DNA of 64,000 nt from assembly GCA_003112755.1 (NCBI GenBank), contig BFBT01000001.1, forward strand, positions 2,976,001 to 3,040,000, read 5' to 3'. A program made the position numbers and the translations under genes. Positions 2,814 through 4,628 of this stretch are shown in pieces; positions within the stretch are counted from its first letter, which is position 1, and each line of letters starts with the position of its first letter. The notes below the pieces were generated by a model. It did no database searches. It was not told the DNA's origin and worked only from the letters and a program-made list of their open reading frames with translations. The stretch is from Lawsonibacter asaccharolyticus (GTDB lineage: Bacteria > Bacillota > Clostridia > Oscillospirales > Oscillospiraceae).

Positions 2814-2842
2814 TTGACAGGGCGGCTCCGCTGTGCTACACT
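2814..2842 (+). promoter_or_regulatory. Strong sigma-A promoter of the ABC-F leader
   Basis: TTGACA at 2814-2819, exactly 17 bp, TACACT at 2837-2842. It is among the best promoters in the window. Transcription would start near 2849, giving a leader of about 255 nt before the ABC-F start codon. Confidence 0.8.
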
Positions 2843-2875
2843 GCATGGGAATCCAGAAGAAATGGAGGCGGGAAA

Positions 2876-2896
2876 ATGCGCAATGCCGCTTGCTGA
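2876..2896 (+). CDS. Candidate regulatory leader peptide upstream of the ABC-F gene
   Basis: A six-residue ORF (M-R-N-A-A-C, stop TGA) with a textbook Shine-Dalgarno: GGAGG at 2864-2868, 7 nt before ATG 2876. It starts about 27 nt into the predicted transcript and lies upstream of an intrinsic terminator (3026-3062) and the Lsa-type gene. This is the arrangement of ribosome-sensing attenuators, in which a drug-stalled ribosome on the leader ORF shifts RNA folding. A second mini-ORF (ATG 2902 or 2905 to TGA 2925) lacks a Shine-Dalgarno and overlaps a GGGGC/GCCCC hairpin (2917-2933). Seen: promoter, Shine-Dalgarno, ORF and terminator. Inferred: the regulatory role. Confidence 0.6.
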   Translation: MRNAAC

Positions 2897-3025
2897 ACCG
2901 CATGATGGAAGAGAGAGGGGCCTGAAAAGCCCCGGTTCTGTCATGCCTGAGCAAGAGGGTGTTGTCTTCCCGCTCCGGCTGTTCGTATGGAGCTGCCCCA
3001 GGGGGGCGGCTGTGGATCGTCTGCC

Positions 3026-3062
3026 AAAGCCGTGAGAAGGTGCGCCTTCTTGCGGCTTTTTT
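3026..3062 (+). terminator. Leader terminator (attenuator) before the ABC-F gene
   Basis: Arms 3026-3040 and 3045-3059 pair over 15 bp (two G-U wobbles) around a TGCG loop and end in six T residues. It stands between a consensus promoter and the ABC-F Shine-Dalgarno (3091-3097), so it would truncate the leader transcript unless antitermination occurs. The 5' arm (AGCCG) could instead pair with CGGCT at about 3007-3011, a possible antiterminator. Confidence 0.85.
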
Positions 3063-3104
3063 CATATGCCCCGCCGGCGGCGGGGCGGAAAGGGAGGCAG
3101 AACA

Positions 3105-4628
3105 GTGTCTTTGATCCAAATCGAACATTTGTATTTTACCTATGACGGCGGCAGCGAGCCGGTCTTTGAGGACCTGGACCTACAGCTGGAAACAGACTGG
3201 AAGCTGGGGCTGGTGGGCCGAAATGGCAGGGGGAAGACCACCCTGCTGCGCCTTCTGGAGGGCGGGCTGGAGCACCGGGGGCAGATCCGCACGGGGGGCC
3301 TGGCCTGCCGCCGGTTCCCCTGCGCCGTCCGGGAGACGGAGGTCCCGGTGTCCCAGGTGCTGCGGGATATCTCACCGGAGGCGGAGGAGTGGCAGCTGGT
3401 CCGGGAGCTGTCCCTGCTGGGGCTGGATGAGGAGGTGCTGGAGCGCACCCTCTCCACCCTGAGCGGAGGGGAGCAGACCCGGGTGCTCCTGTCCGCCCTG
3501 TTTCTGGACGAGGGGAGCTGGCCCATGCTGGACGAGCCCACCGACCACCTGGACGAGGAGGGGCGGGAGCTGCTTGCTCAATATCTCAGCCACAGCCGCC
3601 GGGGCTTCCTGCTTGTCTCCCACGACCGGGCGTTTCTGGACCGGTGCGTGGACCATGTGCTGGCCCTGAACCGGACGGGGCCGGAGCTGGTGAAGGGAAA
3701 TTTCTCCGTGTGGTACCAGGAGAAGCAGGACCGGGACCGGCGGGAGCAGGCCCAGAACCAGCAGCTGAAGGGGGAGATCCGCCGACTGGAGCAGGCGGCC
3801 CGCCGGACCTCTGCCTGGTCCGACCAGGTGGAAAAGACCAAATACGCCAGTAAAAATTCCGGACTGCGCCCCGACCGGGGCTATGTGGGCCACAAGTCGG
3901 CCAAGATGATGAAGAGGGCCAAGAGCCTGGAGAGCCGGCAGGAGTCTGCCATCCGGGAGAAGGCGGCTCTGCTCCACGACGTGGAGCGGGCCGAGCCCCT
4001 GAAGCTGGCCCCCCGGGCGTTCCACAGCGCCCGCCTGCTGGAGCTGGACCGCGTCTCCATCGACTACGGGGACGGGCCTGTGTGCGGCGAGGTCAGCTTC
4101 TCCCTGAGCCAGGGGGAGCGGCTGTGCCTGGAGGGGAGGAATGGGAGCGGCAAGACCAGCCTGCTCCGGCTAATCCTGGGGGAGGAAGTGCCCCACACGG
4201 GGACCGTGCGGTGGGCCTCTGGCCTGGAGATCTCCTATGTCTCCCAAAAGGTGGACCATCTGCAGGGAGCCCTTCGGGACTTCCCGGCGGAGGAGGGGAT
4301 AGACGCCACCCAGTTTATGACCATCCTGCGCAAACTGGACTTCCCCAGGGCGGCCTTTGAGGGAGAAATGGGTGCGTACAGCGCGGGCCAGAAGAAGAAG
4401 GTCCTGCTGGCGGCCAGCCTGTGCCGCAGCGCCCACCTGTATGTCTGGGATGAGCCGCTGAATTTTGTGGACCTGTTCTCCCGTATCCAGATGGAGGAGC
4501 TGCTGCTGGAGTACCGGCCCACCCTGCTGTTCGTGGAGCACGACGAGGCGTTCCGGGAGCGGGTGGCCACCCGGCGGGTGTCCCTGTCTGAGCGCGGGCT
4601 GGAAAAAACAGACAAAGATATGAAATAA
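3105..4628 (+). CDS. Lsa-type ABC-F ribosomal protection protein
   Basis: A cytoplasmic twin-ATPase ABC-F protein of 507 aa. It is expected to bind the ribosomal E site and displace drugs from the peptidyl-transferase centre (lincosamides, streptogramin A, pleuromutilins in the Lsa family). NBD1: Walker A GRNGRGKT (38-45), signature LSGGEQTR (119-126), Walker B with catalytic E144 (MLDEPTDHLD). The charged interdomain linker (about 205-305) carries the Lsa-like run KNSGLRPDRGYVGHKSAKMM. NBD2: GRNGSGKT (344-351), degenerate signature YSAGQKKK, VWDEPLNFVD. No membrane domain. The start is GTG 3105, set by AGGGAGG at 3091-3097. Both catalytic glutamates are intact, so it should be active. The upstream leader and terminator suggest drug-inducible expression. 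Lsa subfamily membership is by recalled similarity; substrate range is inferred. Confidence 0.85.
   Translation: MSLIQIEHLYFTYDGGSEPVFEDLDLQLETDWKLGLVGRNGRGKTTLLRLLEGGLEHRGQIRTGGLACRRFPCAVRETEVPVSQVLRDISPEAEEWQLVRELSLLGLDEEVLERTLSTLSGGEQTRVLLSALFLDEGSWPMLDEPTDHLDEEGRELLAQYLSHSRRGFLLVSHDRAFLDRCVDHVLALNRTGPELVKGNFSVWYQEKQDRDRREQAQNQQLKGEIRRLEQAARRTSAWSDQVEKTKYASKNSGLRPDRGYVGHKSAKMMKRAKSLESRQESAIREKAALLHDVERAEPLKLAPRAFHSARLLELDRVSIDYGDGPVCGEVSFSLSQGERLCLEGRNGSGKTSLLRLILGEEVPHTGTVRWASGLEISYVSQKVDHLQGALRDFPAEEGIDATQFMTILRKLDFPRAAFEGEMGAYSAGQKKKVLLAASLCRSAHLYVWDEPLNFVDLFSRIQMEELLLEYRPTLLFVEHDEAFRERVATRRVSLSERGLEKTDKDMK

Follow-up and report, generated by a model that had tools for sequence, protein, structure and literature searches.

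A leader that, judged by comparison with its relatives, is a real attenuator precedes the Lsa-type ABC-F gene of the window (the whole stretch of 64,000 nucleotides that was analysed). It is part of a widespread RNA family, of a known kind but apparently undescribed, whose design recurs before many related genes of Gram-positive bacteria. We consider it quite probable that the leader attenuates transcription by sensing whether a ribosome has become stuck where a minimal leader ORF begins. The novel part of the finding is a form of the leader in which that ORF consists of a start codon followed directly by a stop codon (a start-stop).

The leader, its gene and its relatives

The first-pass annotation had described a promoter, a six-codon ORF (MRNAAC) with its own Shine-Dalgarno (SD) sequence, a small GC hairpin, a terminator and the ribosome-binding site (RBS) of an Lsa-type ABC-F gene. 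Each of these could be located in the sequence, together with further hairpins and the gene itself:

2814-2842, forward strand: promoter TTGACA-17-TACACT with an extended -10 TG (promoter scan; similarly placed promoter-like sites in relatives)
2864-2868, forward strand: SD of the leader ORF, GGAGG (sequence; aligned in relatives)
2876-2896, forward strand: leader ORF M-R-N-A-A-C-stop, ATGCGCAATGCCGCTTGCTGA (sequence; relatives)
2886-2893, forward strand: strand s1, CCGCTTGC, the 3' part of the ORF and the 5' arm of helix P3 (alignment, covariation)
2900-2946, forward strand: hairpin P4, GCATGATGGA ... TTCTGTCATGC, with a GC-rich tip at 2917-2933 (fold, covarying pairs)
2951-2958, forward strand: strand s2, GCAAGAGG, the 3' arm of P3 (covariation, swap test)
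2967-2976, forward strand: putative anti-SD strand, TTCCCGCTCC, which pairs with the leader SD in the predicted fold
2973-2980, forward strand: CTCCGGCT, a candidate partner of the terminator 5' arm (duplex of -14.4 kcal/mol)
3020-3025, forward strand: TCTGCC, which may mask the ABC-F RBS by pairing with GGCAGA (3096-3101) (fold of the window alone)
3026-3062, forward strand: intrinsic terminator, a 15-pair stem and a T run (terminator scan; hairpin in relatives)
3092-3097, forward strand: SD of the ABC-F gene, GGGAGG (sequence)
3105-4628, forward strand: Lsa-type ABC-F gene with a GTG start, 507 aa (sequence, family models, structure relatives)

The leader ORF begins 7 nt past its SD, and the GTG start at 3105 lies 7 nt past GGGAGG. 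Between 2400 and 4800 the scan found the promoter at 2814-2842 as the sole promoter-like site (shuffles expect 0.2), and the stem of the terminator (stem 3026-3059, T run 3057-3062) is the longest among the seven terminator-like sites in the same interval (1.3 expected). The leader folds 5.6 sd better than its shuffles (z -5.6), and in the predicted fold the SD, the ORF and the small GC hairpin form one long interrupted hairpin. The small hairpin of the first-pass annotation accordingly exists at 2917-2933, but its separateness from the ORF does not hold, as it is the tip of the longer, ORF-containing hairpin. A GC-rich inverted repeat, CCCCGCCGGCGGCGGGG, occupies 3069-3085, between the terminator and the ABC-F gene.

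The top NCBIfam match of the window protein is the Lsa family NF000167, at 630.5 bits and below the curated cut-off of 750, and the broader ribosomal protection ABC-F model NF000355 is passed at 451.8 bits (cut-off 380). Its best solved relative is Lsa(A) of Enterococcus faecalis (7nhk). Lsa proteins act on drugs that block the peptidyl transferase centre (PTC), namely the lincosamides, streptogramin A and the pleuromutilins.

Related loci were chosen by similarity, at least 30 of them from one search and the best 80 of 384 from another, and yielded 105 loci with distinct genes, or 103 after minus-strand loci had been re-oriented; two of these, L014 and L038, are the same locus, which leaves 102, and counts given per 89 or 103 include that locus twice and correspond to 88 and 102 when corrected. 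In four of the related loci the upstream DNA spans less than 250 nt. Leaders laid out in the same way, recognized by pattern and inspection, were found in 88 of the 102 loci, among the matches listed. In 71 of 86 loci the ORF is preceded, at a distance of 40-85 nt, by a promoter-like site (at least 9 of 12), versus 6 of 86 letter-shuffled ones. The ORF has six codons in 62 of the 89 leaders, seven in 16, eight in one and five in one (L068, which is ambiguous); the short forms comprise one ORF of four codons, four of three, two of two and two of a single codon. By a simple rule, a terminator-like hairpin is present in 80 of the 89 relatives, among which those of L050, L074, L087 and L103 resemble other hairpins, and several of the nine leaders that fail the rule show a hairpin missing the loop or tail criterion. 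Both a short ORF with its own SD, located between promoter and gene, and an intrinsic terminator between that ORF and the gene are conserved, as in an attenuator. The first-pass annotation had staked its proposal on conservation of the short ORF and the terminator in relatives, and the proposal survived that test; conservation, together with the covariation described below, lends good support to its central claim, that an Lsa-type ABC-F gene is under ribosome-mediated attenuation.

Searched at gathering and at relaxed thresholds, Rfam 15 gave no family in the window, and Rfam gave no match in the loci of six relatives. The open-access literature that we searched contained no account of the present leader family, nor of a drug sensor built on a start-stop. 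The likeness to other ABC-F attenuators that had been suggested is apt in design. In Bacillus subtilis vmlR, as described in PMC9226507, the uORF also lies in an anti-antiterminator hairpin and is followed by a further hairpin and an intrinsic terminator; a hairpin partly hides the SD of the gene, and the gene downstream is again an ABC-F gene. That leader responds to lincomycin, and its uORF encodes Met-Ile-Asn (MIN) (PMC9226507). It differs in subfamily (ARE2) and in having a tripeptide, whereas the ORF of the present family has 1-8 codons and its 3' half, in the longer forms, is a pairing strand. The Clostridioides difficile gene cplR, which according to PMC10201436 is induced by lincomycin and retapamulin, likewise has a very short uORF, MR[I/M], and a terminator, but the cplR SD lies inside the terminator stem and there is no hexapeptide. 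E. faecalis lsaA is a member of the same ARE3/Lsa group of ABC-F genes and has a predicted uORF with the consensus MAGN (PMC10201436), which, in a comparison of uORF sequences, is unlike the leaders found here. Listeria lmo0919 (vgaL) is described as an ABC-F attenuator with a short uORF (PMC10201436, PMC12421871), but it belongs to subfamily ARE1, and Lmo0919 is far from the window protein (120.8 bits, versus 414.4 bits for LsaA).

RNA pairing and the leader peptide

For the study of covariation 78 elements were aligned without regard to structure, 11 of the 89 being excluded (two duplicates, one truncated and eight short or odd). The strand s1 starts 10 nt from the A of the AUG, and its CTTGC core lies 13 nt downstream. 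When s1 is set against s2, 92.8% of the cells of P3 are paired, compared with 86.6% after shuffling, a level reached by none of 500 shuffles (which, like the swap tests given below, ignore kinship), and slid versions of the pairing attain at most 68.4%. Cells changed on both sides number 68, compared with 24.5 after shuffling (0 of 500 shuffles reach this). Two of the five measures taken of P3 give a less clear excess, namely the pairs with a double change (5 versus 3.0, reached by 18 of 500) and the number of pair types (11 versus 9.9, reached by 77 of 500). RNAalifold predicts 17 pairs in two helices from the same alignment, with compensatory changes in 15 of the 17. By alignment and covariation, then, a hairpin that contains the uORF is present, and it would act as an anti-antiterminator.

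The same pairing bears on the peptide, which had been put forward as a new drug-sensing hexapeptide. That proposal is unsupported. In the 78 ORFs of six or seven codons, codon 6 is TGC in 72 and never TGT (all 72 Cys codons are TGC), and codon 5 reads NCT for the most part, both of which the s2 strand demands. The Cys is gone where changes in s1/s2 hit codon 6, as in the leaders MRHISR (L104), MRNSHR (L017), MRNSLR (L023) and MRNTLG (L022). Leaders with an early stop (MRN in L080, MR in L099 and L112) retain s1, and those of 2-4 codons as well as the start-stops retain both s1 and s2. In a tree of 130 protein rows (FastTree, rooted at the midpoint, with the ambiguous L068 leader excluded from the labels), 9 rows have an ORF shortened to 2-4 codons, and at least five changes are forced by well-supported branches. 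Residues kept in every lineage independently of pairing, which an arrest peptide of the ErmCL kind should display, were not found. Because truncated and start-stop leaders exist, and because Cys is lost together with changes in s1/s2, the hexapeptide is not the conserved sensor on this evidence, and its sequence is probably for the most part a by-product of RNA pairing.

It is improbable, in our estimation, that the leader acts as a sequence-specific arrest peptide whose nascent residues stall the drug-bound ribosome at codon 5 or 6. Codon 5 specifies Ser, Thr or Ala in 68 of the 78 ORFs and Pro in just 3, even though no base of P3 is less well paired than the first base of this codon, and pairing alone leaves the rarity of Pro unexplained. 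A penultimate Ser, Thr or Ala favours arrest by phenicols and oxazolidinones, and a drug-specific context preference at codon 5 is conceivable. Certain residues at a defined position are known to matter for arrest (PMC8987054). Protection from phenicols and oxazolidinones, however, is ascribed to other ABC-F subfamilies (PMC10201436). Residues 4-6 are, moreover, largely fixed by the pairing, the ORFs of 2-4 codons and the start-stops end before those residues while the RNA is kept, and the Cys yields to changes in s1/s2.

Most likely, the sensor is a ribosome that is kept on the AUG or immediately past it, and not a particular peptide. A ribosome held at this position has also been proposed for vmlR and cplR; drugs of this PTC-blocking class are described as stalling ribosomes early with little context (PMC10201436), and stalling at the start codon is described for the are5sc and tiaA leaders (PMC12421871).

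A proposed switch governed by a held ribosome

The mechanism that we propose builds on the features that emerge from sequence comparison: the position of the ORF, the helices P3 and P4, the terminator, the association with Lsa-type genes, the early truncations and the start-stops. Translation of the leader ORF, the inducing drugs, the extent of the ribosome footprint and the antiterminator are its putative elements. With no drug present, a ribosome would quit the ORF at once, and the strand carrying the SD and the ORF would pair downstream, through P3 and the SD:anti-SD helix; this anti-antiterminator would let the terminator form and keep the ABC-F gene off. A PTC drug (a lincosamide, streptogramin A or a pleuromutilin) would keep the ribosome on the AUG or immediately past it, where its footprint would cover the SD and s1. 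The freed strand of s2 and anti-SD could then pair with the arms of the terminator, and RNA polymerase would read on.

The antiterminator is the weakest step of this explanation. Throughout the family s2 also matches the 3' arm of the terminator, and in tests that ignore kinship this match outperforms swapped partners at 60 of 71 loci; the pairing of the anti-SD strand with the terminator 5' arm beats the swaps in 50 of 71, and that of the whole middle region with the 5' arm in 36 of 71, which is no better than swapped partners. Since the s2 and anti-SD pairings can nest, the freed strand could occupy the whole terminator. When a ribosome footprint of approximately -15 to +16 of the AUG was masked, the mean predicted probability of the terminator fell from 0.93 to 0.58 over 71 loci, and in 26 of the 71 it was not above 0.5. 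When the mask was applied before the 3' arm had been made, the mean sequestration of the 5' arm rose from 0.32 to 0.62 (up in 58 of 71 loci, down in 9), a modest excess over the 0.54 of shuffled sequences, with the locus's own sequence better in 52 of 71. For the window alone, equilibrium folding predicts little switching: the terminator probability passes from 0.97 to 0.92 with the ribosome in place, and the sequestration of the 5' arm from 0.57 to 0.49 (shuffled control, 0.39). Replacement of the terminator by an antiterminator when a ribosome is held is, on these tests, moderately supported for the family and unsupported by equilibrium folding for the window.

The pairing of TCTGCC with GGCAGA, which is weak in relatives, might add a second, translational layer. 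It is quite unlikely that control is mainly of this kind, with TCTGCC at 3020-3025 hiding the SD of the gene until induction and termination being secondary. The predicted fold of the window does place this pairing over the SD, and cplR is described as having both layers, with the uORF essential and termination not (PMC10201436); against this, the middle region fits the gene RBS only weakly better than swapped partners (48 of 71 loci), and the terminator is conserved. Amino-acid attenuation for cysteine, to which the Cys codon conserved in most leaders might point, was rejected as next to impossible, as there is a single Cys codon, the gene encodes a ribosomal protection factor, and several lineages lack the Cys and others have a start-stop as ORF.

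Distribution of the family and the start-stop leaders

A covariance model (R1) built from the leader elements was searched in whole genomes. It recognizes one place in the genome of the window, the element itself (80.7 bits), 46 places in 393 genomes of the class and 31 in 398 genomes of the phylum (three of them repeats). Five of the resulting 74 distinct places share training-set sequence, and 67 immediately precede a gene whose protein is 43-100% identical to that of the window. Two others precede decayed remnants of lsa (L154, 91 bits; L164, 66 bits). One place (L278, 40.4 bits), with the leader MIIFSCK and a terminator, precedes a gene for an ABC-F protein 27% identical to that of the window and outside the Lsa group; the best specific models for this protein, Msr and CplR, score below their cut-offs. 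Two places precede genes that are not of the ABC-F type, both in a single genome of the phylum (G658) and both with terminators: L175 (within L289; 39.9 bits, MIITIC) and L287 (within L288; 28.9 bits, MIVTTC). The genes behind them code for a protein of 405 aa that has a SnoaL_3 domain and for a nucleotidyltransferase-like protein of 347 aa (Pfam Polbeta, 21 bits, below the cut-off), and might possibly be unrecognized drug-resistance genes. The matches L285 and L286, near threshold, were set aside as probably due to chance.

A related gene is present in 141 plasmid records, four of which were inspected. An element (822-963, 76 bits, leader MYNFSC) precedes lsa(E) on the one lsa(E) record inspected, the Enterococcus faecium plasmid pEf37BA (L148), and an element of 26 bits with an AUG-TGA leader precedes the lsa gene of a Paenibacillus plasmid (L150); R1 gave no match on the plasmid lsa(B) (L149) or the Priestia lsa (L151). 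On pEf37BA the terminator and lsa(E) lie approximately 150 nt apart, with a possible additional small ORF in between. A Clostridia-like source of lsa(E) is hinted at by the grouping of its protein with that of L069 (Clostridiaceae), with full FastTree support. Judging from the titles of the records and from the family search, one RNA family appears to control the genes for Lsa-type ribosome protection in Clostridia, Negativicutes and Paenibacillaceae.

The start-stop form was followed in Paenibacillaceae, where the gene was found (at E 1e-120) in 85 of 104 genomes and the element, by rule, in 75 of the 93 upstream regions examined, one of them from a plasmid. When the AUG nearest s1 is taken as the start, 60 of the 75 elements, many from genomes that are close kin, are start-stops (TAA in 38, TAG in 17 and TGA in 5), and four of the 60 (L150, L196, L222 and L227) have another AUG a few bases before it. 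The 18 regions without an element by the rule include two start-stops recognized by eye (AUG-TGA in L179, AUG-TAA in L202). All 19 start-stop rows of the protein tree fall in one group of 28 that lies among hexapeptide leaders. In 55 of the 60 start-stops (including L232, L237 and L254) the AUG follows the SD after 11-13 nt, versus 6-8 nt in most other leaders. Start-stop sites have been described in E. coli and Campylobacter, where PMC11955535 does not present them as drug sensors, and the default minimum of uORF4u, nine nucleotides (three codons), would miss them (PMC10219788).

Our tentative reading, to which we give somewhat less than an even chance, is that in Paenibacillaceae the drug is sensed by a ribosome that forms no peptide bond, the hexapeptide ORF having shrunk to the smallest possible ORF while the initiating ribosome served as the sensor throughout. 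With a drug bound in the peptidyl transferase centre, the release factor would be slow to free formyl-methionine, and the unreleased initiation complex would flip the leader RNA. Drugs of the class on which Lsa proteins act slow the release of formyl-methionine; our search of open-access papers returned nothing on this effect.

It is also possible, if on the doubtful side, that the AUG-stop is untranslated and that the stop is kept as a structural accident, its URR pairing with UUA of s2. For 52 of the 60 start-stop elements the predicted fold pairs all three bases of the stop, and the long gap after the SD, the alternative AUG of four leaders and the close kinship of many of the genomes are in keeping with such an accident. 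The idea that the stop is kept without pairing in L205, L222, L249 and L260 was rejected, at least two of the three bases being paired in all but L222. Against a structural accident, all three stop codons are used, TGG, which could pair as well, is absent among the 75 elements, the SD and AUG persist, and in 9 of the 15 elements that are not start-stops the frame, its stop lost, runs on to the same ...SC-stop.

The natural series of leaders from hexapeptide to start-stop provides a ready experiment on whether such leaders read a peptide or the position of a ribosome, and the presence of the leader on an enterococcal plasmid makes the inducibility of lsa(E) directly testable. The covariance model can be used to find further genes under the same control. 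If sensing by an initiating ribosome at a start-stop is true, the leader would mark resistance genes that have gone unrecognized, for example the nucleotidyltransferase-like and SnoaL-like genes that follow it in one genome.
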